NCBI RefSeq assembly: GCF_026011735.1
Contig: NZ_BRVN01000004.1
Location: forward strand, 124,001 to 188,000
From: Dietzia sp. NCCP-2495
GTDB taxonomy: Bacteria > Actinomycetota > Actinomycetes > Mycobacteriales > Mycobacteriaceae
Direction: 5' to 3'
Length of the DNA stretch: 64,000 nt
Shown here: positions 3,014 through 64,000 of the stretch, one piece after another
Position numbering within the stretch: the stretch's first letter is position 1
Layout: every line of letters begins with the position of its first letter
The notes under the pieces: generated by a model
Seen by the model: the letters and a program-made list of their open reading frames with translations, nothing else
What the model was told of the DNA's origin: nothing
Database searches by the model: none
Program-made: the position numbers and the translations under genes

Positions 3014-4603
3014 TCAGACGCCGACCGAGCCGTGCTCGGCGCGCAGCGTGCCCTTGACGACCTTGCCGCTGGCGTTGCGCGGAAGCTCGTCCAGGATCAC
3101 CAGGTGCTTGGGGAGCTTGAAGCCCGCGAGCTTGTCCCGCAGCCAGCCGTTGAGCTCGTCGAGCGTGAGGTCCGGGCCCTCGGTCTCGTTCAGCGCGACC
3201 ACCGCGACCGGCACCTCGCCCCACTTGTCGTCCTTGCGGCCGATCACCGCGACCTCGCGGATGGCGGGGTGGCCGGCGATGATGTTCTCCACCTCGGCGC
3301 AGTAGATGTTCTCGCCGCCGGAGATGAGCATGTCCTTCTTGCGGTCCACCACGTAGACGAAGCCCTCGTCGTCCATACGGACCAGGTCGCCGGAGTGGAA
3401 CCAGCCGCCCTCGAACGCCTCGGCGGTCTCGGCGGGCTTGTTCCAGTAGCCGGACATCATGGTGGGCCCGCGGTAGACGATCTCGCCCACCTCACCGGGG
3501 GCGACCTCGTCGCCGAGCCCGTCGATCACGCGCGCCTGGACCGTGGGGATGACCTTGCCGACGGAGCCGAGCTTGCGGATCGCGTCGTCGCCGTCGAGGG
3601 CGCAGGTGATGGGACTCATCTCGGTCTGGCCGAACACCGCACAGTTGAGCGCGTCGGGGAAGGTCTCCGCCATGGCCCGCAGGATGGTGTCGGTCGACGG
3701 GGCGGCACCCCAGGAGATGTTGCGGAGCTCCAGGCTGCGCGGGCGGGCCTGCTGCTCGGCGCAGACGGCCTGCCACTGCACCGGGACCAGGAAGATCGAG
3801 GTGATCTTCTCGGCCTCCAGGGTGTCCAGCAGGGCGGCCGGGTCGAAGGCCTGCAGCGGGTGGATGACGGTGGTCCCGCCCAGCTGGAGGCTCGGGGCGA
3901 TGGATCCCAGGGCCGCGATGTGGAACATCGGGGCCGCGCACAGGGCACGGCCGTCCTCGTCGAAGAGCCGGAACACGCGGATGCAGGTGAGCGACTGGGC
4001 CGTCAGGTTCTCATAGGAGAGCATCGCGCCCTTGGGGCGGCCCGTCGTGCCCGAGGTGTACATGATGAGCGCGGTGGCGTCCTCGCGGACGTCGACCGGC
4101 GGGTGCGCCTCGGGGTGGGCCTCGAGGGCCTCGGCGTAGGTGGTCTGGTCTGCCGTCCCCGGCTCTCCGCCGATCACGATGTGCTCGCCGGGTTCCTCAC
4201 CCTGGGCGCGGATCGCCCCGACGAGCGGCGCGAGCATGGCATCGGTGATGACGACCGTCGGCGAGCAGTCGCTCACCAGGTAGGCCAGCTCACCCGGGGT
4301 GAGGCGGAAGTTCACCGGGACGGCGATCGCGCCGAGCTTGTTGATGCCCAGCACCGCCTCGACGAACTCCGGGTTGTTCAGCGTGATGAGCATGACCCGG
4401 TCGCCCTCACCCACGCCGCGGGAGGCCAGGGCCGCAGCGAACCGGCCGGAGCGCTCGTCGAGCTGCGACCAGGTGGTGGTCTGGCCGAGGTAGCGCAGCG
4501 CCTCGCCCTCGGGGTTCATCTCGGCGTGAGTGGCCACCCACGTGTTCCAGTTGTTGCGTCGCGCCGCGTGCAGCTCGACGATGGGATCAGTGGCAGTGCT
4601 CAT
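3014..4603 (-). CDS. fadD5: Long-chain fatty-acid CoA ligase, FadD5-like
   Basis: 529-residue acyl-adenylate-forming enzyme that activates fatty acids to acyl-CoA. The AMP-binding P-loop YTSGTTGRPKG is at residues 182-192, the A5-type motif FGQTEMSPITC lies in the middle, the A8 hinge YVVDRKKDMLISGGENIY follows, and the catalytic lysine is in NASGKVVKG near the C-terminus. Wording and length are very close to mycobacterial FadD5 as I remember it, including the unusual QWQAVCAEQQARPR stretch. FadD5 in M. tuberculosis also sits just upstream of yrbE1A. Here it lies between a crotonase and yrbEA, so imported fatty acids could be activated directly for the beta-oxidation enzymes of the same operon. 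Confidence 0.92.
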   Translation of the reverse strand: MSTATDPIVELHAARRNNWNTWVATHAEMNPEGEALRYLGQTTTWSQLDERSGRFAAALASRGVGEGDRVMLITLNNPEFVEAVLGINKLGAIAVPVNFRLTPGELAYLVSDCSPTVVITDAMLAPLVGAIRAQGEEPGEHIVIGGEPGTADQTTYAEALEAHPEAHPPVDVREDATALIMYTSGTTGRPKGAMLSYENLTAQSLTCIRVFRLFDEDGRALCAAPMFHIAALGSIAPSLQLGGTTVIHPLQAFDPAALLDTLEAEKITSIFLVPVQWQAVCAEQQARPRSLELRNISWGAAPSTDTILRAMAETFPDALNCAVFGQTEMSPITCALDGDDAIRKLGSVGKVIPTVQARVIDGLGDEVAPGEVGEIVYRGPTMMSGYWNKPAETAEAFEGGWFHSGDLVRMDDEGFVYVVDRKKDMLISGGENIYCAEVENIIAGHPAIREVAVIGRKDDKWGEVPVAVVALNETEGPDLTLDELNGWLRDKLAGFKLPKHLVILDELPRNASGKVVKGTLRAEHGSVGV

Positions 4604-44188: not shown

Positions 44189-44893
44189 ATGCATCTGACC
44201 CCCAAGGAAGAAGACCGGCTCCTGCTGTTCCTCGCGGCCGAACTCGCGCGCCGCCACCGGGACGCGGGCCTCAGGCTCAGCTACCCCGAGGCCCGGGCGC
44301 TCATCGCCGACGAGGTCGTCGAAGCCGCCCGCGCCGGCAAATCCGTCTCCGAAGCCGTGAGCGTCGGCGCGCACCTGCTCACCGAGGACGACGTCCTGCC
44401 CGGCGTCGCCGACCTGATCGGCACCGTCCAGGTCGAGGGGTTCTTCGACGACGGCCAGAAACTCGTCACCGTCCACGACCCCATCCGGCCCGGCGCGCCG
44501 TCGGCGACGGCCGAGCCCGCCGTGGTCCCGGGCGAGGTGATCGTCGACGACGGCGAGATCGAGCTCAACGCTGGGCGCCCTACCGCGACCCTGACCGTGA
44601 CGAACACCGGCGACCGTCCCGTCCAGGTGGGGTCACACTTCCACTTTTTCGAGGCCAACCGCGCCCTCGAGTTCGACCGCCGGGCGGCGTACGGCATGCA
44701 CCTCGACATCGCCTCCGGCACGGCCGTCCGCTTCGAACCCGGCGAGGAGAAGGCGGTGCAGCTCACCTCCTTCGGCGGCACCCGAGAGCTCTACGGGCTC
44801 AACGACATGACCAACGAGGCCCTCGGCGACCACCCCTCCGACTCGCTCATGGCCGCCCTCGACGAGGCCGGCTTCCGGTCCTCCCACTCCTGA
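44189..44893 (+). CDS. ureAB: Urease gamma-beta fusion subunit
   Basis: 234 residues, equal to a gamma subunit (about 1-100: [40 protein letters not shown]) joined to a beta subunit (about 110-234: [41 protein letters not shown]). Gamma-beta fusions occur in Helicobacter and some actinobacteria. Urease hydrolyses urea to ammonia and carbamate in the cytoplasm. First gene of cluster 1, preceded by a promoter-like region. The beta part's Asn-Asp-rich end [10 protein letters not shown] differs from cluster 2. Confidence 0.93.
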
Positions 44894-44918
44894 CACACAC
44901 CCGGAAGAGAGGTTCACC

Positions 44919-46634
44919 GTGTCCGTCCGCGTATCGCGACGTCACTACGCCGAACTGTTCGGCCCCACCACCGGCGACCGGGTCCGCCTCGCCGACACCG
45001 AACTGCTCGCCCGGGTCGAGGCCGACGACACCGTCTACGGCGACGAGGCCGTCTTCGGCGGCGGCAAGACCATGCGCGAGGGGATGGCCGTGCACAACTC
45101 GGTGACCAACGCCGAGGGCGCCCTCGACTTCGTCATCACCAACGCCCTGCTACTCGACCCGGTCCTCGGCATCCGCAAGACCGACATCGGTGTCAAGAAC
45201 GGCCGGATCGCCGGGATCGGCAAGGCCGGCAACCCCCGGCTCATGGACGGTGTGCACCCGGACCTCGTGATCGGCGCCGGCACCGACGTCCGCGCCGGCG
45301 AGGGGATGATCGTCACTCCCGGCGCGATCGACGTCCACGTCCACTTCGACAGCGCAGGCCTCGTCGACGAGGCGATCTCGAGCGGGATCACCACCATGAT
45401 CGGCGGCGGCCTCGGGCCGGTCACCGTCGGGATCACGAGTTCGGGCCCGACGAACCTCGCCCGCATGCTCCGGTCCGTCGAACACTTCCCGATGAACTTC
45501 GGGTTCCTCGCCAACGGCAGCGCAGCCCACGTCGCCCCGCTGATCGAGCAGGGCCGGGCGGGCGCGATCGGCTACAAGATCCACGAGGACTGGGGCGCGA
45601 CGCCGGCCGCCATCCGCGCGTCGCTCGACGCGGGGGACGAGCTCGGGCTACAGGTCCAGATCCACTCCGACACCCTCAACGAGGCGGGGTTCTACGAGGA
45701 CACCATGCGCGCCATCGACGGGCGCGTCATCCACACGTACCACGCCGAGGGCGCCGGCGGCGGGCACGCTCCCGACATCATGCAGGTGGTCGGCGAATCG
45801 TACTGCCTGCCGTCGTCGACCAACCCGACCAACCCCTACACGGTCAACACTTTCGACGAGCACCTCGACATGGTCATGGTATGCCACCACCTCAACCCCC
45901 GGGTCCCCGAGGACGTCGCGTTCGCCGAGTCCCGGATCCGCCGCGAGACGATCGCCGCCGAGGACGTGCTCCACGACCTCGGTGCGATCTCCGCGATGGG
46001 CTCGGACTCGCAGGGCATGGGACGGATCGGCGAGACCATCGCGCGGACCTGGCAGCTCGCGTCGCACATGCGGGCCACGCGCGGTGCGCTGCCCGAGGAC
46101 GCCGGGACCGGGGCGGACAACCACCGGATCCTGCGGTACCTCGCCAAGATCACGATCAACCCGGCGCGCATGTTCGGGATCGACCACGAGGTGGGCTCCC
46201 TCGAGCCCGGCAAGCTCGCCGACTTCGTGCTGTGGGAGCCCAAGTTCTTCGGGATCAAGCCCGAGGTGGTGTTCAAGGGCGGGTTCCCGACCTGGTCCGT
46301 CATGGGTGAGGCCAACGCCTCGCTCATGACCTGCGAGCCCCTGCGGTACCGGCCGCAGTGGGCGGCGTTCGGGAAGACCCCGTCCGACGTGTCGGTGAAC
46401 TTCGTCGCCGGCGCCGCGGTCGACGACGGGCTCGGCGACCGCCTCGGACTGGCCACCCCACTCGTCCCCTGCGTGGGCGCGAGGACGAATACCAAAGCCG
46501 ACCTGCTGCACAACGACTACTGCCCCGACATCCGCATCGACCCGGACACCTACCGGGTGGAAGTGGACGGCGAACTCTGCACGAGCACACCGATGACCTC
46601 GGTCCCGCTCGGGCGCGGATACACGATCAAGTAA
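44919..46634 (+). CDS. ureC: Urease alpha subunit, divergent
   Basis: 571 residues from a GTG start. All nickel ligands are kept: His140/His142 (AIDVHVHFD), carbamylated Lys220 and His222 (YKIHEDWG), His249, His275 ([13 protein letters not shown]) and Asp363 (GSDSQGMGR); the flap Cys322-His323 (MVCHHL) is kept. However, the loop canonically TTCTPG is ITSSGP here, GLLGKGN is GFLANGS, and SDSQAMGR has Ala to Gly. The reading is a nickel-binding but pocket-altered enzyme. It may hydrolyse urea with different properties or an analogue. Followed closely by ureG. Confidence 0.93.
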
Positions 46635-46649
46635 GAGATGGAGAACGAC

Positions 46650-47276
46650 ATGACCGGAGCACTCCGTATCGGCATCGGCGGACCCGTCGGCTCGGGCAAG
46701 ACGCGTCTCCTCGAGCGCCTGCTCCCGATGTTCCGCGACGCGGGCATCGAGATCGCCGTGATCACGAACGACCTCATGACCGACGAGGACGCGCAGCGCG
46801 TCCGTCGCAGTGGACTCATCGACCCGGACCGCGTGCGCGCGATCGAGACCGGCGCGTGCCCGCACACGGCGATCCGGGAGGATCCGTCCGCGAACCTCAC
46901 CGCGGCCGACGAACTCGAACTCGCCCACCCCGGCGTGCAGGTGATCCTCATCGAGTCGGGCGGAGACAACCTCGCGGCGACCTTCACCTCCGACCTGGTC
47001 GACTACTGGATCTTCGTGATCGACACCGCCGCCGGCGACGACATCCCGCGCAAGAAGGGGATCGGGATGCTGCAGTCCGACCTCCTGGTGGTCAACAAGA
47101 TCGACCTGGCCCCGCTCGTCGGTGCGGACCTCGGACGCATGCGCTCCGACGTCGCGGACGCCCGGCCGGACAGGCCGTCGGTGTTCACCGACCTCCGGTC
47201 CGGCGCAGGCCTGGACGAGACCTTCCGGCACGTCGTCACGGGCGCGATGCTCGCCGACCCCGCACCCATCCGGTGA
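46650..47276 (+). CDS. ureG: Urease accessory GTPase UreG (cluster 1)
   Basis: 208 residues. P-loop [16 protein letters not shown], the Asp/Thr region [16 protein letters not shown], the metal-site motif CPH in [12 protein letters not shown], and switch [10 protein letters not shown] are typical of the nickel-chaperone GTPase. ATG 46650 is favoured by GGAG 6 nt upstream; ATG 46638 would add four residues. It has no His-rich N-terminus; nickel storage here lies in UreE. The stop overlaps ureD as GTGA. Confidence 0.92.
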
Positions 47277-48124
47277 ACCACGGGACCGGTGCCGACACCG
47301 TCACCGGGAGCAGGCTCGAGTGCACGCTCGTGGCGGGTCGCGGGGGGCGGACCCGGATCGCCTCTCTCCTGCAGGAGTTCCCCCAGCGCGTCACCGTGCC
47401 CATGTACGCGGACCCGGGGTGCGCGTCGACGGCGTTCGTCTGCGTGCAGAACCCCACCGCGGGAGCGTTCCCGGGAGACGACCTCACCACCCGGTTCACC
47501 GTAGGCGGGGACGCGCGCCTGTTCCTCACCCAGCAGGCTGCGACGCAGGTCTTCGCCGGCGGGGCGGCGGCGACGCAGACGACCGTGCTCGACATCGCAC
47601 CCGGGGCGGTCGTGGAGTACGTACCAAAGACCGTGATCCCCCACGCCGACTCCGAGTACCGCCAGCGGACCGAGGTCTCGGTCTCGGACTCGTCGGTCTT
47701 CCTCGGCTGGGAGGCGTTCGCGGCGGGCCGGATCGGTCACGGCGAACGCTACGCCTACCAGGGGATCTCGTCGCGGACCGACGTGCGGTACAGCGGCCGG
47801 CTGCGGGCGAGGGAGTCGTTCCGCCTCGCTCCCGGGGAGGCGGATCCGGACGACCCGGGGCTGCTCGGGGGCCACGACTACGTCGCGTCGATGCTCGTCG
47901 TGGCGCCCGGTCGCGAGCTCACCGGGTTGATCGCTGAATTCCACGCCGGGATCGACGCGACCCCGGGCGTCACCGGCGCGGCGAGCACACTCCCGGACGG
48001 GATCGGCGTCTCCGTCAGGCTCCTCGCCGATCGCGCCCCGGACCTACACCGGGTCCACGACCTGCTCTGGAGCACCGCCCGCCGGTCGGTGCTCGACCTC
48101 GGCCCCCTCACCTCAAGGATGTGA
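47273..48124 (+). CDS. ureD: Urease accessory protein UreD (cluster 1)
   Basis: 283 residues with GTG start. The UreD/UreH blocks [38 protein letters not shown] and [19 protein letters not shown] are conserved. UreD binds apo-urease and, with UreF and UreG, guides nickel insertion. Genes upstream and downstream overlap or abut, making one operon ureAB-C-G-D-E-F. Confidence 0.9.
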
Positions 48125-48125
48125 C

Positions 48126-48665
48126 ATGAACTCGACGACGATCCTCGGCACCGCCTCCGATCCCGGGTACGCGACCCGCGAGGTCGACACCGTGCCGATC
48201 CCGTGGGGCGACGCGCGAAAGCACCGGCAGCTCCTCACCACCGCCACCGGGCGAGACGTCGCGCTCGCGCTCCCGCGCGGGACGTTCCTGTCCGAGGGCG
48301 ACGTCGTGGCCGACGACGGGACGAAGATCGTCGTGGTCACCCGGCCCCCCGAGGACGCCGTGGTGGTGGACTTCGCCGACAACACCGGGACCGACGCCGT
48401 GCGGCGGGCCCTCATCCTCGGCTACGTCCTGGGCAACCAGCACGCGCCGCTTGACGTCTCCGTGGACCGGATGCGGACACCCCTCATGACCGGACCCGAG
48501 ACCGCCGAACAGATGCTGCGGGACCTGCACCTGGTCGGGAGGGTCGACCGGGTGCCCCTGGCCGCGCGGGGCTGGACCAACACCTCCGCCGACCACCACC
48601 ACTCGCACGCGCACTCCCACGACCACGCCCATGACCATTCGCACGGACACGGGCATGCGCACTGA
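48126..48665 (+). CDS. ureE: Urease nickel metallochaperone UreE with His-rich tail
   Basis: 179 residues. N-terminal beta domain with RQLLTTATGRDVALALPRG, the central PPEDAVVVDFADNTGTDAVRR, and the GNQHAPLDV nickel-site His are present. The last about 25 residues are extremely His-rich (DHHHSHAHSHDHAHDHSHG), a strong nickel-binding tail. UreE delivers nickel to UreG. Cluster 2 lacks such a gene, so this protein might serve both. Confidence 0.92.
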   Translation: MNSTTILGTASDPGYATREVDTVPIPWGDARKHRQLLTTATGRDVALALPRGTFLSEGDVVADDGTKIVVVTRPPEDAVVVDFADNTGTDAVRRALILGYVLGNQHAPLDVSVDRMRTPLMTGPETAEQMLRDLHLVGRVDRVPLAARGWTNTSADHHHSHAHSHDHAHDHSHGHGHAH

Positions 48666-49344
48666 CCCGCTCGTCGCCGAGCTGACCTGGCTCCATCTCC
48701 ACGACAGCGCGTTCCCCTCGGGCCGGTTCGTCCACTCGAACGGTCTCGAGGCGTGGCTGCGCGACCGCCCCGACGCCACGGACGACCAGATCCGGGCGGT
48801 GGCCCGGGCCTACGTCGCCGGGAGCGTGGCCACCCTCGACGCGGTCGCCGTGGGCCACGCCTGGTCCACCCCCGATTCCGAGGCGCTGGTCGAGCTCGAC
48901 CTCCTCGTGCGGGCGTACAAGATCACCGAGTCGGCCCGGACGTCCTCCGAGGCATGCGGGCGGCAGCTCGTCACCACCGCACGCCGTACGATGCCGTCGG
49001 TCGCCGGCCTCGGGTACCTCGGGCACGTGGCGGCCGGGCGGACACCGGGCTCGCTCCCGGTCGTCGAGGGCGCGCTGCAGCGCGCGCTCGGCATCGACCG
49101 GTCGCGCGCCGTCGCCGGCACCGTCCGGTCGGGGTACGCCGGGGTGCTCTCCGCCGCCGTCCGACTCGGCCGCCTCGGCCCGATGCAGGTGCAGCGTGCC
49201 CTCTTCGACGACGTCCAGTGGATCACCGACCTCGTTCGGGCCGCGGAGTGCACGCCGCTCGAGGACGTCACCGCCTTCTCCCCCGGACTCGACATCGCCG
49301 CGATGCGTCACGAGACCTCCTCCGCGCGGTTGTTCAGTACCTGA
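48655..49344 (+). CDS. ureF: Urease accessory protein UreF (cluster 1)
   Basis: 229 residues, all-helical: LTWLHLHDSAFPSGRFVHSN near the N-terminus is the UreF hallmark, with YKITESARTSSEACGRQLV in the middle. It works as a gate with UreD and UreG. ATG 48655 overlaps the ureE end by 11 nt; ATG 48631 would overlap the ureE His tail by 35 nt. The C-terminus ends MRHETSSARLF, typical. Confidence 0.87.
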   Translation: MRTDPLVAELTWLHLHDSAFPSGRFVHSNGLEAWLRDRPDATDDQIRAVARAYVAGSVATLDAVAVGHAWSTPDSEALVELDLLVRAYKITESARTSSEACGRQLVTTARRTMPSVAGLGYLGHVAAGRTPGSLPVVEGALQRALGIDRSRAVAGTVRSGYAGVLSAAVRLGRLGPMQVQRALFDDVQWITDLVRAAECTPLEDVTAFSPGLDIAAMRHETSSARLFST

Positions 49345-52515: not shown

Positions 52516-53675
52516 CGGGTCTCCTCGGTGTCGGTGGTGGCGCGGCGTCGGCGGAGGGCGAACAGGGAGGCGAGCCCTCCGGGGAGGAATCCGACGACGA
52601 CGATGAAGAGCACTCCCTGCAGGTAGGTCCACTGGGAGGGGTACGCCTCGGCGAACGTGACCTGCGCCCACGCCACGCCGATGGCGCCGAGCACCGGACC
52701 GAGCAACGTGGCGCGGCCGCCGATCGCGACGCCGATGAGGAACGCGATCGACGGCGCGATGCCGATTGCCGAGGGCGAGATGATCCCCACGACGGGGACG
52801 AACAGCGCCCCGCCGAGGCCCGCCGCGAACGCCGCCACCGCGTACGCGAAGGACTTGACCAGTGCCGGGTCGTAGCCGAGGAAGCGGACCCGCTCCTCCT
52901 GGTCGCGCACCGCGACGAGCAGCTCGCCGAAGCGCGAGAACATGAGCTGGCGCACGAGCAGCACCACGGCGACGAGCACGCCGCCGGTGATGAAGTAGAG
53001 CATGAGCCGGTTGGCGGGGTCGTTGAGTGCGAAACCGAAGAAGCCGGTGAAGCGGTTGAGCCCGTTCGAGCCGCCGAGGTCCGCGCGACTCACGAGGAAG
53101 ATCGCCGCGGCCGCCGCCAGTGCCTGGGACAGGATCGCGAAGTAGGCGCCCTTGACCTTGCGGTTGAACACGAGGTAGCCGAACCCGAACGCGAACAGGG
53201 CGGGGACGAGCAGGATCACCGCGAGCGCGAAGCCGGGCGAGGCGAATGGGGCCCAGTAGCCGGGCAGTTCGCGCATGCCGGCTATCTGCATGAAGTCCGG
53301 GAGGGCGTCCGGGCCGCCCCGGCCCTGCGCGTCGGCCATCTTGAGGTGCATCGCCATGGCGTAGGCGCCGATCCCGAAGTACACGCCCTGGCCGAGCGTG
53401 AGCATGCCGCCCCGGCCCCACGCGAGGCCGATGCCCGTGGCGACGAGGGCGAAGCAGAAGTACCGGGCGAGCTGGCTCAGGCGGAAGTCGCTGAGTACGG
53501 CGGGGGCGACCGCGAACACGAGAAGCACGGCCACGGCGAGGCCGGCCCAGAAGACCCACCGCGGCCGGCCCGACGCCCCGGGGGCGGTGAGGCGGGCGCG
53601 CAGTCCGGCGGGTGCGGAGGTGGCGGCGGTGTCGGAGGCGGCTGCGGCGCCGGAGGTGGTGAGGGTGTCGGTCAT
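52512..53675 (-). CDS. urtC: Urea ABC transporter permease UrtC
   Basis: 387-residue LivM-type permease with about nine or ten membrane helices; LARYFCFALVATGIGLAWGR and the GMLTLGQGVYFGIGAYAMAM block are conserved in UrtC/LivM. Overlaps urtB and urtD at both ends. Forms the channel with UrtB for urea entry. Its N-terminal region carries Ala/Thr-rich residues before the first helix. Confidence 0.92.
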   Translation of the reverse strand: MTDTLTTSGAAAASDTAATSAPAGLRARLTAPGASGRPRWVFWAGLAVAVLLVFAVAPAVLSDFRLSQLARYFCFALVATGIGLAWGRGGMLTLGQGVYFGIGAYAMAMHLKMADAQGRGGPDALPDFMQIAGMRELPGYWAPFASPGFALAVILLVPALFAFGFGYLVFNRKVKGAYFAILSQALAAAAAIFLVSRADLGGSNGLNRFTGFFGFALNDPANRLMLYFITGGVLVAVVLLVRQLMFSRFGELLVAVRDQEERVRFLGYDPALVKSFAYAVAAFAAGLGGALFVPVVGIISPSAIGIAPSIAFLIGVAIGGRATLLGPVLGAIGVAWAQVTFAEAYPSQWTYLQGVLFIVVVGFLPGGLASLFALRRRRATTDTEETR

Positions 53676-54556
53676 GCCAGGCTCCTGGTCTTGACGGCGA
53701 ACAAGCCCTGGGGCCGGACCTGGAGGAAGATGATGATCGCAACGAACACCAGGACCTTGGCCACCGAGGCGGTGGTCGAGTACTCGAAGAACGACTGCAT
53801 GACCCCGAGCGCGAACGCGGCGATCACGGCGCCGCGGAGGTTGCCGAGTCCGCCGATCACCACGACGAGGAACGCGTCGATGAGGTAGGACTGCCCGATC
53901 GTGGGGCTGGTCGAGCCGATGAGGGTCAGTGCGACGCCGGCGACGCCGGCCAGGCCCGAGCCGATGAAGAAGGTCGTGAGGTCGCTGCGCCGCGAGTTGA
54001 TGCCCGAGGCCTCGGCGAGGTCGCGGTTGAGGGTGACCGCGCGGATTCGGCGGCCCATCGGCGTGAAACGCATCGCGGCCATGAGAGCGGCCACACAGGC
54101 GACGGCGAGCACGAGGATGAACAGGCGCGTGTAGGGGACGGACGCGCCGAGGATCTCGACGTTGCCGCGGAGGAACGCCGGGACCTCGACGTTCACCGCG
54201 GGGGCGCCCCAGATGTCGCGGGCGATCTGCTGGAGCACGAGGCCCACACCGAAGGTCACCAGGAGCGTGTCGAGGGGGCGGGCGTACAGGCGCCGGATGA
54301 GCACCACCTCGATGAGCACGCCGAGGAGGCCGCCGACGACGAACCCGAGGACCAGCGAGACCAGGAGGCTCACGCCCGAGGCGGAGAGGATTTGCTGGGT
54401 GACGTAGGCGGTGTAGCAGCCCGCCATGATGAACTCGCCGTGGGCCATGTTGATCACGCCCATCTGACCGAAGGTCAGGGACAGGCCGAGGGCGGCGAGC
54501 AACAGGATCGAGCCGATGCTCAGGCCCGTGGCGAGTTGTCCGATGAGGACTTCCAC
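53672..54556 (-). CDS. urtB: Urea ABC transporter permease UrtB
   Basis: 294-residue LivH-type permease. LSIGSILLLAALGLSLTFGQ, GVINMAHGEFIMAGCYTAYV, SGINSRRSDLTTFFIGSGLA and LRPQGLFAVKTRSLA fit UrtB. GTG 54556 is preferred because AAAGGA sits about 6 nt before it; ATG 54583 adds nine residues that include the ribosome site. Follows urtA by about 90 nt. Confidence 0.92.
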   Translation of the reverse strand: MEVLIGQLATGLSIGSILLLAALGLSLTFGQMGVINMAHGEFIMAGCYTAYVTQQILSASGVSLLVSLVLGFVVGGLLGVLIEVVLIRRLYARPLDTLLVTFGVGLVLQQIARDIWGAPAVNVEVPAFLRGNVEILGASVPYTRLFILVLAVACVAALMAAMRFTPMGRRIRAVTLNRDLAEASGINSRRSDLTTFFIGSGLAGVAGVALTLIGSTSPTIGQSYLIDAFLVVVIGGLGNLRGAVIAAFALGVMQSFFEYSTTASVAKVLVFVAIIIFLQVRPQGLFAVKTRSLA

Positions 54557-54647
54557 ATCGTTTCCTTTCTTCTGGATGCGCACCCCGGGCCGCGGCGCCC
54601 GGTGGTGGGCCGGGGCGCCGCGGACGCCGGGTGAGGGGAACGGGCCG

Positions 54648-55928
54648 TCAGTTGCCGGAGAGCTCGCCGGCCCAGTCGTAGGTCTCGAGGTACGGGTCGG
54701 GCTCGATCGGCTCGCCGGAGCTCCACACCTCGTAGATCAGGCCGTCCGGGCGGATCTCGCCGATGAGGGCCGTCTTGGAGATGTGGTTGTTCTCGCCGTC
54801 GATCGTGACCGTGCCCTCGGGGGCCTCGTAGCTCACCCCGTCGGCGGCCTCCTGGACTGCGGGGACATCGAAGCTGCCGGCCTTCTCGACCGTGTTCTTC
54901 CACAGGTAGACCGAGGTGTACGCGGCCTCCATCGGGTCGGAGGTGACCCGGTTCTCGCCGTACTTCGCCTTGAACGCGTCGACGAACGCGGTGTTGGCCG
55001 GTGAGTCGATGGTCTGGTAGTAGTTCCACGACGTGAGCTGACCGACGATGTTCTCGGCCCCGATGCCCTGGACCTCCTCCTCGGCGATCGACACGCTCAC
55101 GACCGGGGTGTCCTCGGCGGCCAGGCCCGCGTTGGAGTACTCGCGGAAGAACGCGACGTTGGAGTCGCCGTTGAGGGTGTTGAACACCGCGTCGGGCTGG
55201 GCGGTGCGGACCTTGTTGACGATCGTGGAGAAGTCGGTGGAGCCGAGCGGCGTGTAGTCCTCGCCGAGGATCTCCACGTCGTTCGCGTCGGCCCACGCCC
55301 GGATCACCCGGTTGGCGGTCTGCGGGAACACGTAGTCGGAGCCGACGAGGTACAGCGACTCGATGTCGCGCTCCTCCTTGAGGTAGTCGAGCGCGGGGAC
55401 GATCTGCTGGTTGGTCGTGGCGCCGGAGTAGAAGATGTTCGGCGACGACTCGAGGCCCTCGTACTGGACGGGGTAGTAGAGCAGCGCGTTGTTGTCCTCG
55501 ACCACGGGGAGCATGGCCTTGCGGCTCGACGAGGTCCAGCCGCCGAAGACCGCGGCCACGCAGTCGGCGGTGATGAGCTTCTCGGCCCGCTCGGCGAACA
55601 CGGCGGGGTCGGACGCGCCGTCCTCGACGATCGGCTCGATCTGCTTGCCGAGCACGCCGCCGTCGGCGTTGATCTCCTCGATCGCCAGCGCCACGGAGTC
55701 GCGCACGGTCTCCTCTGAGATCGCCATGGTGCCCGACAGGGAGTGCAGCGAGCCGACCTTGATCGTGTCGCCGGAGGTGTCGACACAGGACTCGGCGGCG
55801 GCTGCGGACTCGTCGGTGGTGCGGCTGCCGCACGCGGTGAGGGCGCCGACGCCGAGCGCCAGGAGCGCCGCGGCGGCCACGGCCCGGCGCGGGCGGGTGG
55901 TTCCGGTACGGAAGGGGGTGCTGGTCAC
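54648..55928 (-). CDS. urtA: Urea ABC transporter binding lipoprotein UrtA
   Basis: 426 residues; lipobox ALTACGS with Cys33 and [20 protein letters not shown] in the mature part. The urea-binding fold ([40 protein letters not shown]) and C-terminal [10 protein letters not shown] are very similar to the cluster 1 paralog but differ in about a quarter of positions by eye. It opens the urtABCDE operon. The gap to ureD2 (55929-56126, about 200 nt) probably has its own promoter. Confidence 0.94.
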
Positions 55929-56126: not shown

Positions 56127-57062
56127 TCAGCTCTTGCGCAGGTCCGGCGCGGGGGCGCCGAGGACGTGGGTGCGGCTCGCCGACCACGCGGCACGGACCG
56201 CGCCCTCGACCTCCTCCTGCCCGTCCCCGACCAGGCGGACCCACGCACCGGCGCCGTCCGGGAGCGTGCTCACGCCGGCCCGGCACCCGGGGGCGTCCGC
56301 CGTGGCGTCGCGGAGGACCCCGGCGAGCTCGGCGGCGGGTCCGGGGGCCACGACGAACAGCGTGCCCATGGCCCCCGCGGCGCCCACCACGAGGGGGTGC
56401 GCGGCCTCGGCGCCGACGATGCGGGTCGTGTCGACCGCGACCGGGTCCCCGCCGGGGCGGACGATCTCGACGGTGGACACGAGCGCGTCGAGGTCCCACC
56501 GCTCCCCGCGTGCCACGCGGCCGGCGGTGAGCACGTCGGCGGCGACGAGCACCGCGTCGTCCGGCACCTCGGCGACCAGTCGCTGCTGGAAGCGGCTCCC
56601 CGCGTACGGGATGAGGGGATCGGGCACCCACTCGCACACCGCGCCGCGTTCCAGGGTCAGGGACACGGTCTGGGTGCCGTACCCGACGTCGGTGCGGTGG
56701 ACTCGTGTCGCCGCCTGGGTGGTGACGACGACGTGGGCACCGTCTGCGACCCTGATGCCCGTGTCGAGGCGGTCGCCCCCGACCACGCCGCCCCCGGTGG
56801 ACATGACGTAGGTGACCGGGACGTGCGGGAGTGCGGGGTCTACGTACAGCGGCCGCATGACCTGGAGCGGGGACTTCTGGTGGCGCCGGGCGAGGACCGT
56901 CCGGCCGCCGGGGTCTTTACGAAAGTCGAGGTCGAGCACGCCCACCTTGCCCGGCGAGCCCACGGGCAGCGCGCCGGGCCCGGTCTCCGGGCCCGCGGCC
57001 ACCTCCGGCCAGACAGGCCCGGGGTCGGCCGCGCGGGTGAGCCGGGTTCCGGGCCGGGTCAT
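56127..57062 (-). CDS. ureD: Urease accessory protein UreD (cluster 2)
   Basis: 311 residues. UreD blocks YVMSTGGGVVGGDRLDTGIR, VVTTQAATRVHRTDVGYGTQ, EWVPDPLIPYAGSRFQQRLV and AADVLTAGRVARGERWDLD are present, closer to classical UreD than the cluster 1 protein. It follows ureG2 by an ATGA overlap. The N-terminal 45 residues before DLDFRKDPGGRT are an extra low-complexity part. Confidence 0.9.
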   Translation of the reverse strand: MTRPGTRLTRAADPGPVWPEVAAGPETGPGALPVGSPGKVGVLDLDFRKDPGGRTVLARRHQKSPLQVMRPLYVDPALPHVPVTYVMSTGGGVVGGDRLDTGIRVADGAHVVVTTQAATRVHRTDVGYGTQTVSLTLERGAVCEWVPDPLIPYAGSRFQQRLVAEVPDDAVLVAADVLTAGRVARGERWDLDALVSTVEIVRPGGDPVAVDTTRIVGAEAAHPLVVGAAGAMGTLFVVAPGPAAELAGVLRDATADAPGCRAGVSTLPDGAGAWVRLVGDGQEEVEGAVRAAWSASRTHVLGAPAPDLRKS

Positions 57063-57694
57063 CCGGCGGGCAACAGGTCCGCGCGCCGGGACTCGAGATG
57101 GTCGAGCACGTCGTCGATCCCGGTGCCGCTGAGGCAGTCGGTGAGCGCGACGGGCCGGCCGGAGCGGACGCGATCGGCGTCGGAGGCCATCACGTCGAGG
57201 TCGCACCGCACGTATTGCGCGATGTCGATCTTGTTGATCACGAGCAGGTCGCACTCGGTGATGCCCGGGCCGCGCTTGCGGGGCATCTTCTCTCCCTCGG
57301 CGGTGTCGAGGACGAAAAGAAAGAGGTCGACGAGCGCCGGGGAGAACGTGAGCGTGAGGTTGTCGCCTCCGGACTCGAAGATGAGGGTGTCGACGTCGGG
57401 GTGCTCGTCGAGCATCTCGGCTCCCACCGCGAGGTTCATCGTGGGGTCGTCGCGGACGGCGGTGTGCGGGCACGAGCCCGTCTCCACGCCCACGACGCGC
57501 GCGGGGTCGAGCACGCCGGCCAGCGTGCGGCGCACGTGCTCGGCGTCCTCCTGCGTGTAGATGTCGTTGGTGATCACGGCCGGGGTCCGGCCGCGCTCGA
57601 TGAGGGCGGGGACGAGCGCCTCGATGAGTGCCGTCTTCCCGGAACCCACGGGTCCCCCGATTCCGATCCGCAGTACCTGTCGCCCGAGTGCCAT
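57059..57694 (-). CDS. ureG: Urease accessory GTPase UreG (cluster 2)
   Basis: 211 residues. P-loop [39 protein letters not shown], the CPH nickel motif in VGVETGSCPHTAVRDDPTMN, and VINKIDIAQYV are classical UreG. It shares only the core with UreG1. It is separated from ureF2 by 154 nt containing an inverted repeat, so ureG2-ureD2 may have a separate promoter. No His-rich N-terminal extension is present. Confidence 0.94.
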   Translation of the reverse strand: MALGRQVLRIGIGGPVGSGKTALIEALVPALIERGRTPAVITNDIYTQEDAEHVRRTLAGVLDPARVVGVETGSCPHTAVRDDPTMNLAVGAEMLDEHPDVDTLIFESGGDNLTLTFSPALVDLFLFVLDTAEGEKMPRKRGPGITECDLLVINKIDIAQYVRCDLDVMASDADRVRSGRPVALTDCLSGTGIDDVLDHLESRRADLLPAG

Positions 57695-57746
57695 GGTGCC
57701 GACGCTACCCCGCGCGTGTTTCGGGGCCGTTGCGCACCGTTCCGGC

Positions 57747-57824
57747 GATCGATCGCATCTCGTGAAAATCGATCACATTCCTGGCGAGACCTACTCAGCC
57801 GATGCGGCATAAATGCGATCGATC
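57747..57824. promoter_or_regulatory. Inverted repeat upstream of ureG2
   Basis: GATCGATCGCAT (57747-57758) and ATGCGATCGATC (57813-57824) are perfect inverted 12-mers 54 bp apart in the ureF2-ureG2 gap. AT-richer sequence between them includes TGAAAATCGATCACATTC. Could be an operator pair forming a loop, or a palindrome ending the upstream transcript. Confidence 0.45.
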
Positions 57825-57848
57825 TGGGAGGGCCGCGCCCGGGGCGGG

Positions 57849-58658
57849 TCAGCTCGCGAAGAGCCGGGCCTCCGCGTGCTCGTGGCGACACGAGGCCAGG
57901 TCGAGCCCGGGCGCGGAGCCGCCGATCCACTCGAGGGGCCGCCGCAGCGCCGCGTCGGTGACCTCCTCGATCACGGGCGCCGCGCCGCGGACCAACGCCT
58001 GCGCACTGCGGTGGTCGGCCAGACGCAGCCGGAGCGCGGCCCCGGCCATGCTGATCACCACCGCGGTGAGATCCGCAGCCACCGCCTCGCGCCGGGTGAG
58101 CCCGCCCCGCGCGTAGACCACTCCCATGACGACGGACTGCGAGCCCGGGGCCCGCTTCGCCCGCACGTGCGCGTTCCACGCGTCCACCACGGGGTCGTCC
58201 AGGATCTCGGCGGCCAGGTCGAGGACCTGACGGCCGGTGCGGGTCGCTCCGTCGCGGAACTCCCTGGTCAGTCGCGTGGCGTGGAGGCGCCGGTCGATGC
58301 GCGTGAGGGCCGCCAGGAGCTCGGTGGCGCCGCACCCGCTGGCGTCCGGCCCGGCCTCGCCCGGCACCGCTCCGCCTGGCACCGCCATGTCGCCGTGCTT
58401 TCCCGGTGCCGCCCCGCCGCCGTGCTCCGCGACCGCCGACCACGCGAGCGCGAGCGCCGTCGCGTCCGCCGGCCCTGTGGAGTGCCGCAGGATCCCGTGC
58501 ACCATGTCGGCCAGCGAGTCCGCGTCGACCCGCCCCTCCTGCGCGAGCCCCTCGAGCCCGTGCGAGAGCGTGTACATGCCCGAGGGGAACGACGAGTCGG
58601 TGAACTGCAGCGCGAGCAACAGCCGCCCGAGCCCGGCCTCCGGAACTGCCCCCGTCAT
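57849..58658 (-). CDS. ureF: Urease accessory protein UreF (cluster 2)
   Basis: 269 residues. [20 protein letters not shown] is the UreF hallmark; [20 protein letters not shown] and the ending [16 protein letters not shown] are typical. Length exceeds cluster 1 UreF by about 40 because of an insert in the first half ([19 protein letters not shown] region) made of Gly/Pro/Ala with two His. Start overlaps ureC2 stop as ATGA. Confidence 0.9.
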
Positions 58659-60838
58659 GCCAGGTAGTGGAGCTGCGCGAGCGGCAGCGTGGTGGCCGGG
58701 GCAATGGTCGCGGGCTCGCCGTCGACGGTGACGACGTACGTCTCGGGATCGACCCCGATCTCGGGGCAGCGGTCGTTGCGCACCATGTCGGCCTTGCCGA
58801 TCCCGCGGCAGCCGCGGACCGGCAGGCACGGCGAGCCCAACCCGAGCTGGTCGGGTACCCCGGCCTCGATCGCGGCGGCGGACAGGAACGTCACGCGCGT
58901 GGCCTGCAGCGCCCGGCCGTACGCCCCGAACATCGGCCGGTAGAGCACGGGTTCGGGCGTGGGCAGCGACGCGTTTGGGTCGCCCATCGGCGCCCAAACG
59001 ATCATCCCGCCCTTGATCACGGCGGACGGCTTGGCGGCGAACGAGTCGACGGGCCACACCACGAGGTCGGCGAGCTTGCCCGGCTCGACCGACCCGAGGT
59101 GCTCGGCGACCCCTGCGGCGATCGCCGGGTTGATCGTCATCTTGGCCAGATAGCGCAGGACGCGCTCGTTGTCGTTGCGCGCGCCGCCGGCGCCGTCGGG
59201 GGACGCGGCGACGTCCTCGGGCAGCGGCCCGCGCTCGAGGCGGCAGTGGTGGGCGGTCTGGAACGCGCGTATCCACGACTCGCCGATCCGCCCCATGGCC
59301 TGGGAGTCGGAGGAGAAGATCGAGATGATCCCCTCGTCGTGCAGCACGGTCTCGGCGGCGATCGTCTCGGCGCGCACCCGGGAGTCGGCGAAGCTCACGT
59401 CCTCGGGGATGTCGTGCGACAGGTGGTGGCACACCATGACCATGTCGAGCAGCTCGTCGACCGAGTTGACCGTGTACGGCAGCGTCGGGTTGGTCGACGC
59501 GGGCAGCACGTTGGGTTCGCCGCACACGCGGAGGATGTCGGGCGCGTGCCCGCCGCCGGCGCCCTCGGAGTGGAACGTGTGGATGGTCGAGTCGCCGATC
59601 GCGGCGCGCGTGTCCTCGTAGAAACCGGACTCGTTGAGCGTGTCGGTGTGTATCGCCACCTGCACGTCGTGGGCGTCGGCGACCTCCTGCACGCAGCGGA
59701 TCGCCGCGGGGGTCGTGCCCCAGTCCTCGTGGATCTTGAGCCCGGCCGCGCCGGCGACGATCTGCTCGACCGCCGACTCCGGCTGCGACGTGTTGCCCTT
59801 GCCCAGCAGCCCGACGTTGACCGGTAGCCCGTCGACGGCCTGCAGCATGCGGCCGATGTTCCAGGCGCCGGGCGTGCACGTGGTGCCCTTGGTCCCCTCC
59901 GCCGGACCGGTGCCACCGCCGAACAGGGTGGTCACGCCGTTGGACAGCGCCTCCTCGGCCTGCTGGGGCGCGAGGAAGTGGATATGGGTGTCCACGCCGC
60001 CGGCGGTGACGATCTTGTGCTCGCCGGCCACGACCTCGGTGCCCGGGCCGATCACGAGGTCGGGGTGCACGCCGTCCTGCAGGTGCGGATTGCCGGCCTT
60101 GCCCACGGCCACGATCCGCCCGTCCCGTACGCCGATGTCGCCCTTGACCACGCCGATCACCGCGTCGAGGATCGTCGCGCCGGTGATCACGAGGTCGAGC
60201 GCCCCCGACGCCCGCGTCCCGGCGGGGTCCTGCGCCATCCCGTCGCGTATCGCCTTGCCACCCCCGTACACGGCCTCCTCGCCGTACCCGCGCGAGCCGT
60301 CGTGGGTCTCGGCGTTGTGGTCGCGCGTCACCTCGATCGTCAGCGCGGTGTCGGCGAGCGTGAGCCGGTCGCCGACGGTCGGTCCGTAGATGTCGGTGTA
60401 GGTCGCGCGCGGCAGGACGGTCGGCGGCCCGTCCGGCTCCCCCGCCGTCCCGTCCCCGTCCGGCCGGGGTTCGTCGCCGAACCCGCCGGCGGCCAGCCTC
60501 TCGAGGGCCCGCGCGCGCACCTCGTCGTCGTCCAGTGGGCCGTTCACGAGCCCCGAGAACCCGTGGCAGACACGGGCTCCCGCGTAGTCGACGAGCCGTA
60601 CCGTCCGCGTCTGCCCCGGCTCGAACCGCACCGCGAGCCCGGCCCCGATCGCGAGGTGACGGCCGTAGGCGGCCCGCCGGTCGAACCGGAGCTCCCGGTT
60701 GGCCTCGAAGAAGTGGTAATGCGAGCCGACCTGGACGGCGCGGTCGCCGGTGTTGGTCACGGCGACCTCGACGGTCGGGCGTCCGGCATCGAGCGTGACG
60801 TCACCGTCTCCATAGGTGTAGTGGACTGATGCGGACAT
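58655..60838 (-). CDS. ureBC: Urease beta-alpha fusion subunit (UreB-UreC)
   Basis: 727 residues in one uninterrupted frame. Residues 1-120 are urease beta ([40 protein letters not shown]), 121-142 a Gly/Asp/Pro-rich linker, and 143-727 a full alpha subunit ([18 protein letters not shown]). Nickel ligands are His285/His287, Lys368/His370, His397, His423 and Asp511, with Cys470-His471 in the flap. The canonical TTCTPG, GLLGKGN and SDSQAMGR are all kept, so it is the conventional enzyme of the two. Gamma is a separate protein (ureA2). Beta-alpha fusion is the junction found in plant ureases but is unusual in bacteria as far as I know. Confidence 0.92.
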
Positions 60839-60857
60839 CGGGACTCCTCGTGCGTGA

Positions 60858-61658
60858 CTAGTGCGAGTGGCTGTAGAGGGTGCCGTCGGCGGCGACGTGC
60901 GAGTGGGCGTAACCGTGACCGTCCTCGGCCTCGAGCGCCGCGTCGATCCCGTCCCGGCCGTGCTCGAGTCGGTGCACGGCTTCGGCGGCGCGGGTGTCGA
61001 GCACGCTGCGCACGACGGCGGGCCCGAACAGCGCGGTGCCCTCGCCGGGGAGCCCGTGTCCGGTCACCGGGGCGGGGGCGAGGGTCGCCGGCACGATCAC
61101 CGGCCGCGCGACGCCGAGGGCCGTCAGGCGCGCGAGCCCCCCGGCGAGGTCGGGGTCGGGCTCGACGCCGCCGTCGAACGCCACCTCGACCAGCGCGGGA
61201 CGGCCGTACTGCCGGGCCAGGCGCGCGACGCGGAACAGTTCGGCGTCGGCGAACGGGTCGATCCCGGGGCTCACGACGAGCGCGCCCTCAGCGTCGGGGT
61301 GGCGGCGCAGAGCCGCCCGCAGGCGAGTGACCAGCATCGACGGGTCGCCGAAGGGGTCGGCCAGGGCGAGGCGGCCCGGCCCCAGCCGGGGCCGGAGGTC
61401 GCGGAGAGTGCGGGAGCAGTCCGCGATCACCGCGGGGGACCGACCGAAAGAGAGGGGGACGACGACGACGAGGTCGTCAGGAGCACCGGTCGCCAGGGCC
61501 TCCACCACGTCGCCGAGCGCGCGGCCCGGCCGGGCGGTGGGCACACCGGGATCGGGCATCCCCTCGGCCTCCGGACCGACGGCCGCGACGACGTGCACCG
61601 CGGACGGGGGGCGGTGCGCGGGGGAGTGCGTGTGCGCGCCGGGGCGGGTGTCGCTCAT
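60858..61658 (-). CDS. CbiX-like protein with His-rich ends, in urease operon
   Basis: 266 residues. Two half-domains recall the CbiX/SirB sirohydrochlorin chelatase fold: [40 protein letters not shown] and [20 protein letters not shown]. The canonical metal-site GHGSRDP is SPGIDP here, so the usual chelatase His is missing. His clusters occur at the N-terminus ([15 protein letters not shown]) and the C-terminus ([19 protein letters not shown]). It lies between ureA2 (ATGA overlap) and ureBC2. With no ureE in this cluster, it is a likely nickel-binding accessory protein replacing UreE. Alternative: a chelatase-like protein of unknown role. Confidence 0.8.
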
Positions 61659-61975
61659 GCCCGCGTCTCTACCGGGCCGACCGGGTCGTGGACGGTGACG
61701 AGCTTGGAGCCGTCGGGGAACGTGGCCTCGACCTGGATCATGGCGAGGCGTTCGGGGACCCCGGGCATGACCTGACCCACGTCGAGGACCTGCCGGCCGA
61801 GGTCCATGCACTCGGCGACGGTCCGTCCGTCGCGGGCGTGCTCGACGATCTCCCACGAGATGAGGGCCGTGGCCTCGGGGACGTTGAGCAGCACTCCGCG
61901 GTCCAGCCTGCGGCGCGCGATCTCGGCCGCCGTGAACAGAGTGAGCTTGTCCGTCTCACGGGGGGTGAGTTTCAT
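61655..61975 (-). CDS. ureA: Urease gamma subunit (cluster 2)
   Basis: 106 residues, the usual gamma length: [40 protein letters not shown] and [19 protein letters not shown]. Unlike in cluster 1 it is not joined to beta. First gene of cluster 2; its stop overlaps the CbiX-like start. An inverted-repeat promoter region lies upstream. Together with ureBC it forms the (alpha-beta-gamma) enzyme. Confidence 0.95.
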
Positions 61976-62124: not shown

Positions 62125-62412
62125 TCAGTCGTGCCGCGCGCCCATGAGGTGCAGGATGCGGTGCACCGTCTGGTCGACGAGCGAGTACCGTACGACGCGC
62201 CCGTCCGCGGGGTCGCGCTCGGCCGTCACCCACCCCTGCTCCCGCAGCACGCGGAGGGCCTGCGACGCGGCGTTGCCAGTGATACCCACGGCGGCCGCGA
62301 GGTCCGTCACGGTCGCGGCCCCCGGGCCCCGCTCGTGCATGTGCGCGAGCAGGCCGAGCCGGGTCGGGTCGGCGAGCAGGTCGAACCGCAGCGCCCAGTC
62401 GTCCAGATCCAT
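62125..62412 (-). CDS. ArsR-type regulator next to urease cluster 2
   Basis: 95 residues: [20 protein letters not shown], the helix-turn-helix [20 protein letters not shown], a wing [19 protein letters not shown] and an end [14 protein letters not shown] that includes three His and acids. Those could bind metal, as in NmtR/KmtR-type nickel sensors, but the exact alpha5 motif is not matched. An AAAGGAG ribosome site precedes it by about 9 nt. Transcribed in the direction of cluster 2 and divergent from the transport gene. Confidence 0.85.
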
Positions 62413-62508: not shown

Positions 62509-64000
62509 GTGCCCCTGTTCTACCCCTCCCCCCGCGCCCGTGGTCCCGTCTCCGCCGCGGTCGCGGCCGGTCTGGCCCTCGCATTGACCGGCTGCGTCGC
62601 GCCCGGGTCGGCCGCCCCGGAGGGCACCCGTCTCGTCCTCGCCGACGGCGCGGAACTCGGCGAGTTCAACCCCGTCTCCGGCTACGGCTCGACGGGCGTC
62701 TCGCCGCTGTACGAGGGACTGCTCCGACCGGACGCACCCGACGACTCGTCGCTCCCCGAGCTGGTCCCCGCGCTCGCGGCGGCCGAACCGGAGGTGAGCG
62801 ACGATGGCCTCGCGTGGACCGTCCGACTCCGCGAGGGCGTGCGCTTCCACGACGGCAGCGCCTTCGACTCCGCCGACGTCGCAGCGACGTACGCCGCGGT
62901 GACGGACCCCCGGTCCGGGTCCCCGATCGCGTCGGACTACGAGACGATCGAGCGCGTCGGCACCCCCGACCCGTTCACCGTGACGTTCACGCTCGCCGCG
63001 CCCGACCCCGGCTTCCCGGCACGGCTCCTGCTCGGGATCGCCCCGTCCGAGCTCCTCGCGCCCGGGCCCGCGGCGGCGTCGCCCCTCAACACCGCGCCGG
63101 TCGGGACGGGCCCGTACCGGCTCGAGAGCCTGTCGGCGGGCGAGGCCGTCCTCGTGGCCGACCCCGCGTACCGCGACGGGCCCGCCGACGTGGAGACGCT
63201 CGTCCTGCGTTCGGTGCCGGACGAGAATGCGCGCGCCCAGATGGTCCTCACCGGGGAGGTCGACGGGACGGTCCTGCCGCCCCGGCTCGCCGCCGGCCTC
63301 GCGGACCGGGAGGGCGTCGAGCTGGTCTCGGTTGCGACCGCGGACTGGCGCGGCGTCTCGCTCCCCGCCGCGCACCCGTTCACCGGGGACCCCGAGGTCC
63401 GACTCGCGCTCGACACCGCGCTCGACCGCGACGCCCTGGTCGAGCACGTCCTGGGCGGCCACGGCGAGCCCGCGACGAGCCCCGTCACCCCGGCGTACCC
63501 GGAGTTCGAGTCCACCCGACCCGCCGGCGGCGGCACACCCGTAGAGAACCTGGAGGCGGCCGCCGCGCGGCTCGAGGCGGCGGGATGGCGCCCGGACCCG
63601 GACGGGGTGCTGCGGCGCGGAGCGGACCGCGCGGAGCTCGAGCTGGCCTACCCGGCCGCGGACTCGCTCCGGCGCGAGCTCGCCTCCGCGGTCGCCGACC
63701 AGCTGTCCGGGCTCGGGGTGGCCGTGGAGATCCGTGGCGGAACCTGGGACGAGATCGAGCCGCGCGCGGCGGACGTGGCGATCCTCCTCGGCGGCGGGGA
63801 CAACCCCTACACCGTCGACACGCAGGCGTACCGCGCACTGCACTCCCGCTCGGAGCGGACCGCCCCGCTCGACAACCCGGGCGGCTACGCGAACCCCGAC
63901 GTCGACCGCGCGCTCGACGCCGCCCGCGCCGCGACCGACCCGGCCGACCGTACCGAGCGGTACCGCGAGGCCCAACGGGCGTTCGCGCTCGACCCCGGAT
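62509..64000 (+). CDS. Peptide/nickel-type ABC binding lipoprotein (3' end beyond window)
   Basis: GTG 62509, read directly from the DNA, opens a frame that stays open to the window end (at least 497 codons). The signal peptide ends in a lipobox LALTGC (Cys29). The SBP family-5 fold is seen in [53 protein letters not shown] and [20 protein letters not shown]. Such proteins bind oligopeptides, or nickel in NikA-type systems. Position beside an ArsR-type gene and a urease operon makes nickel attractive, but there is no residue proof. The rest of the transporter would be beyond 64000. Confidence 0.82.

Follow-up and report, generated by a model that had tools for sequence, protein, structure and literature searches.

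The protein X, encoded within a urease operon of Dietzia sp. NCCP-2495 that has no ureE, is likely the metallochaperone that carries nickel in a urease lineage distinct to certain actinobacteria, with an origin among the two-domain SirB/CbiX chelatases and a Ni(II)-binding tail. Among the actinobacteria examined, X occurs where both of the usual nickel carriers, UreE and a histidine-bearing end of UreG, are missing, and it is therefore probably a third means of supplying urease with its nickel. The gene was found in a stretch of 64,000 nucleotides, referred to as the window throughout, and homologues were followed through samples of Dietzia, of two families, of the class and of the phylum, and through a plasmid collection.

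The urease operon encoding X

X is a two-domain, CbiX/SirB-related protein of 266 residues with His-rich ends, and its reading frame (60858..61658, minus strand) belongs to the second urease cluster of the window, which on the minus strand is ordered ureA-X-ureBC-ureF-ureG-ureD-urtA-urtB. The gamma subunit gene ureA2 (61655..61975; TIGR00193 and NF009712), ureBC2 for the fused beta and alpha subunits (58655..60838; TIGR01792 and TIGR00192), ureF2 (57849..58658; PF01730), ureG2 (57059..57694; TIGR00101), whose product has no His at either end, and ureD2 (56127..57062; PF01774) all lie on the minus strand and score above the cut-offs of the models named, as do the urea ABC transporter genes urtA and urtB that follow the operon (53672..55928, minus strand; TIGR03407 and TIGR03409). 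The start of X and the stop of ureA overlap by 4 nt (ATGA), ureBC begins 19 nt after X, and X thus sits between ureA and the fused ureBC. The operon has no ureE; at E <= 0.001 the genome gives a single UreE_N match, which is the ureE (approximately 48126..48665, plus strand) of the separate cluster 1 (about 44189-49344), outside the X operon. An operon without ureE in which X overlaps ureA, as given in the preliminary description, is therefore what the window contains.

Direct searches with X gave no match at E <= 1 in NCBIfam and, for the window protein, none at E <= 10 among PDB sequences; an X profile compared with solved structures returned insignificant matches only, with a cobaltochelatase at E 0.53 ranked below three CasDinG chains. 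The dN/dS values among the seven Dietzia copies are between 0.21 and 0.46 (21 pairs).

Distribution of X

X was found at 28 loci, some in Dietzia and some in three further families of actinobacteria, a tally which includes one decayed copy (L012) and one locus split over two contigs (G943), and 25 of the loci adjoin ureA and/or ureB. Wherever both neighbours are seen in an X operon, the position between ureA and ureB is constant. In Dietzia, X is present in seven of 23 genomes, each with the order ureA-X-ureBC-F-G-D, and all seven are among the 15 genomes that are at least 90% complete. UreC occurs in eight of the 23 Dietzia genomes at 11 loci, seven with X and four with UreE, and UreE_N is found in four of the 23.

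A search of the class sample with X matched 62 genomes, five of them at E <= 1e-35 (5/394: the window's genome and G434, G601, G661 and G611, in the last four of which X lies between ureA and ureB) and the other 57 at E >= 4e-12; for the weaker matches no urease gene was seen at 25 loci spanning roughly 3 kb each (L063-L087) or in two stretches of 12-14 kb (L092, L093). The two family samples gave four new X genomes among 140 and ten among 120, and in the phylum sample of 178 genomes the matches were the window's genome and one weak one (G850, E 4e-13). The plasmid collection held X in two of 72,556 records, as a complete operon in Streptomyces sp. NBC_01237 and as a remnant, with ureB present and ureC absent, in Embleya sp. 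NBC_00896 (L160). Remnants rather than working operons are also L012 and L165, the latter keeping ureA-X in a genome (G768) that has no UreC match. Three copies have no adjoining urease genes (L185, L186 and L187, in G990, G1013 and G940); G990 gives no UreC match, and in G1013 and G940 UreC is on another contig.

Complementarity of X, UreE and the ends of UreG

X had initially been placed in the role of the missing ureE. That absence proves little when taken alone, as genomes of the class sample usually lack UreE (of the 394, 9 have UreE_N and 178 have UreC); absence was accordingly rejected as stand-alone evidence. The absence itself is nevertheless consistent. A model built from ten known UreE proteins, which recovers all ten (10/10) in a leave-one-out check, gave no hit in any X stretch searched with it (E <= 0.1) and, at the same threshold, no further UreE in the fetched operon stretches searched. 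Four genomes (G004, G016, G020 and G022) contain no UreC locus besides that of the X operon and give no UreE_N match, and such a match is likewise absent from G434, G601, G661 and G611. The survey that had been proposed, of genomes in which X accompanies ureE-less operons, was run in these samples, and X together with UreE was seen nowhere in the X stretches searched.

A complementarity between UreE and histidines on UreG is already published: Haas et al. 2009 (PMC2770081) reported that, two exceptions apart, the UreG of genomes without UreE bears a stretch of His. For the DISCRIMINATING test, 60 urease operons were fetched, hand-picked for spread among the matches listed; six have UreE, 54 have neither UreE nor X, and none has X. 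Of the 54 operons with neither, 48 yielded a UreG, and the six left out either reach a contig end (three) or have no UreG within the fetched 10 kb (three; together L129, L133, L135, L137, L140 and L147). A UreG end counted as His-bearing with two or more His in the N-terminal extension or three or more in the C-terminal tail, thresholds that were chosen after the data had been seen and that were applied to UreG starts from a simple ribosome-site rule. By this definition, all 48 of the operons with neither UreE nor X in which UreG was recovered have a His-bearing UreG end, which is found in none of 21 X operons (L181, where the contig starts at X, included) and in none of ten UreE operons (the six fetched and four of Dietzia). 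The total number of His in the UreG ends is 2-20 in the operons with neither, 0-2 in 11 X operons and 0-1 in UreE operons, with one X operon and one comparison operon tying at 2, and the UreGs of ten more X operons have no His in the N-terminal extension and 0-1 among the last 20 residues.

All 21 X operons with UreG thus have neither UreE nor a UreG His end, and X supplies them with a His-rich segment where no other recognised one is present. Taken together, the counts mean that every operon scored has one His-rich carrier, be it UreE, the UreG end or X. Fisher's test of X against the UreG His end gives 3.7e-18 with relatedness ignored, a value that overstates the association, since X and His-ended UreG each form one clade and the independent events are accordingly few. 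A UreC tree was built by a quick method from 79 rows, rooted at the midpoint and supported by SH-aLRT values only, and it leaves out six X operons found later. In this tree the 15 X rows form one clade (100) and the 54 rows with neither carrier another (99), with the UreE rows in three places around both. The simplest reading, which depends on the root, has two losses of UreE, one accompanied by a His end on UreG and the other by X; the complementarity is therefore strong in rows and modest in independent origins. We consider it reasonably likely that X constitutes a third, separately evolved form of nickel delivery to urease, made from a sirohydrochlorin chelatase minus catalytic residues plus a His tail, and that it marks a separate lineage of actinobacterial urease in which UreE was lost and the UreG His end was not gained.

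The His-rich ends of X

The motifs that had first drawn attention to the ends of X are all present, namely AHTHSPAHR at residues 8-16 (61611..61637, minus strand) and YAHSHVAAD and LYSHSH at the C-terminal end. The His enrichment they suggested is real and, in the window protein, modest, with 13 His per 266 residues, five of them within the last 20 (by shuffling, p is 0.0012 for this end and 0.065 for any 20-residue window). It is the conservation across homologues that sets the tail (residues 247-266; 60861..60920, minus strand) beyond chance: His248, His252 and His254 are invariant in all 11 aligned copies (11/11), His264 and His266 likewise in the seven Dietzia copies (7/7), and no stretch of invariant columns in the seven-copy Dietzia alignment is longer than that at residues 244-254. 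The N-terminal patch is not conserved, as its length varies among the Dietzia copies and it is absent in L051. When tail His are counted by one rule across copies, Dietzia X has 5-7, other copies adjoining urease genes have 4-32, the lowest non-Dietzia in-operon tail being that of L184 with 4, and each of the three copies remote from urease genes has 3. The pattern HxH..DG..HxH of the Dietzia tail occurs in 9 of 69 UreGs and in 7 of 17 X proteins, those seven all from Dietzia. UreGs with a GPVGTGKS-type P-loop (L094-L149) often have C-terminal ends of the form DPGPMAPHxH....

A tail that varies so widely in length could also be that of a nickel store or buffer, which would hold nickel near urease with no hand-over to UreG, and the genomic data fit such a function equally. 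A store alone, however, would leave the bare UreG of the X operons unexplained when set against the His-ended UreG of other operons without UreE, and the chelatase core is conserved along with the tail, so that we regard storage as the sole function as unlikely. The constant place of X between ureA and ureB, compared with the cluster 1 ureE, which is found among the accessory genes, would be in keeping with a factor acting mainly in urease subunit assembly, for which the His tail is secondary. Such a role appears improbable, as the longest invariant stretch in the Dietzia copies is within the tail region and the copies remote from urease genes have short tails.

Relationship of X to the class II chelatases

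While the window protein scores 16.9 bits against Pfam CbiX (PF01903) and does not reach the gathering cut-off of 22, matches to this family at E <= 1 are found in nine of 11 X homologues, with the best at 2.1e-4, and a comparison of profiles is considerably clearer. With 11 X cores aligned by hhalign against 23 of 28 collected SirB-type sequences, the remaining five having been left out beforehand as wrong in frame, masked or odd, the match is 98.6% with E 5.7e-16 over 182 columns; it extends over both lobes and leaves out the initial 34 columns of the X core. Judged by these profiles, X is clearly a distant two-domain relative of CbiX/SirB, and the kinship proposed in the preliminary description holds in the profile comparison although not at the Pfam threshold. 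Like the class II sirohydrochlorin chelatases SirB, CbiX-L and CfbA, X has two homologous lobes; it differs from them in being encoded in a urease operon, in the sub-threshold Pfam score of the window protein and in the catalytic site.

According to a published account, the catalytic His pair of class II chelatases is kept in one lobe or the other (PMC7689651). The loss of a catalytic His from X had been argued from SPGIDP standing where CbiX has GHGSRDP; SPGIDP is present and located in domain 2. The His is indeed absent there, but it is also missing from domain 2 of three SirB-type proteins that were read (L001, L013 and L014), which makes this loss uninformative, and the changes of the site that would be informative are those in domain 1. 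The SirB motif of lobe 1, GHSKGD, has its His aligned with residue 76 of X, which directly follows a GRxP motif, and this second catalytic position is non-His in all 11 aligned copies. The first position, residue 29, is outside the profile alignment and was therefore read by eye, within Dietzia as GPE in six copies, the window protein among them, and as GAE in the seventh, and outside Dietzia as GHE in 18 of the 19 copies with the region and GPE in one. A His pair within one lobe is thus not found in X (0/11 His at the second position, Pro at the first in the window protein), and chelatase activity has likely been lost. The genome also encodes a separate SirB-type protein, L001, with the motifs HGT and FHVTHD, and the possibility that X is an ordinary SirB placed in the operon by chance was rejected on this account and on that of the class search, with its gap between strong and weak matches and no urease gene at the weaker loci looked at. 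That X is a still-active chelatase producing a metallo-tetrapyrrole is very improbable: the GHE of the non-Dietzia copies would allow the old site to remain in part, but residue 76, the separate L001 and the recognised operon genes, which are for urease and urea transport, all argue against it.

A proposed route of nickel delivery

The carrier function of X was suggested in the preliminary description partly on the domain 2 argument, which does not carry it; what favours a nickel carrier is the sampled survey, that is, the position at ureA or ureB in most loci, the lack of any UreE in the X stretches searched and the UreG without a His end. In the proposed mechanism, a two-domain sirohydrochlorin chelatase (SirB/CbiX) would have been the ancestor of X. 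One catalytic His of the pair, or both as in the window protein, would have disappeared, the core would have stayed two-lobed, and a His-rich tail that binds Ni(II) would have been added. The tail would gather nickel, and X would then hand it to UreG on the UreG-UreF-UreD complex with apo-urease, thereby filling the part that UreE or the UreG His end plays in other operons. From the genomic pattern we infer the binding of nickel, its transfer and UreG as the partner, as we do the loss of chelatase activity.

Several known systems share parts of this arrangement. First, UreE (PF02814) is likewise an operon gene, has a His-rich C-terminal tail in the cluster 1 protein and is found where UreG is bare; X, in contrast, is of an unrelated family, with the one PF02814 match of the genome belonging to cluster 1 and no UreE-like sequence in the X stretches, and it is encoded between ureA and ureB. 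Next, the His-rich nickel-binding proteins of gastric Helicobacter have, to our knowledge, no chelatase-like core. These proteins are likewise found in organisms dependent on urease, and, unlike X, they are described as small (PMC4671568). The His-stretch UreG of UreE-less genomes (PMC2770081) also provides a His-rich segment where UreE is absent, whereas in the X operons it is a separate protein that bears the segment, next to a UreG with no His end. Finally, the B. megaterium CbiX-L, like X, has a His-rich C-terminal region, for which metal storage and delivery have been proposed (PMC7689651). The literature searched, with subscription journals mostly outside it, contained no CbiX-related protein in a urease operon and no CbiX-derived third carrier.

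If the proposed function is true, a tetrapyrrole metal chelatase has become a carrier that passes metal between proteins, and the missing nickel donor of one set of UreE-less ureases is accounted for. The rule of one His-rich carrier per operon is directly testable, and X is a candidate to seek in Bradyrhizobium japonicum USDA 110 and Frankia sp. CcI3, both reported as having neither UreE nor a UreG His stretch (PMC2770081).

Second urease cluster and neighbouring genes

The two urease clusters of the window (44189-49344 and 56127-61975) are about 7 kb apart and differ both in subunit fusion, ureAB in cluster 1 and ureBC in cluster 2, and in carrier, UreE in the former and X in the latter. Upstream of ureA in cluster 2 are a divergent ArsR/SmtB-type metalloregulator gene (62125-62412, minus strand) and a family-5 solute-binding protein gene (62510-64000, plus strand), with transporter-like genes past the window. 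The solute-binding protein scores far under the cut-off for NikA. A link to nickel uptake through these neighbours was considered and rejected; 15 other X stretches gave a single weak ArsR match (37%), about 5 kb from X in L160, which places the regulator and the solute-binding protein outside the system.

The window's own genome has a second, decayed ureA-X pair (L012; G000, contig C5:179922-181950), in which ureA is interrupted by an internal stop and X gives way to unrelated sequence close to the end of the contig; the N-terminal His patch of this X is longer than in the intact copy. In another X operon (L162, G756), a tandem repeat at about 3470-3560 fills the spacer between ureF and ureG and reads (HDDN)n in the frame of UreG, but it lies upstream of the likely UreG start.
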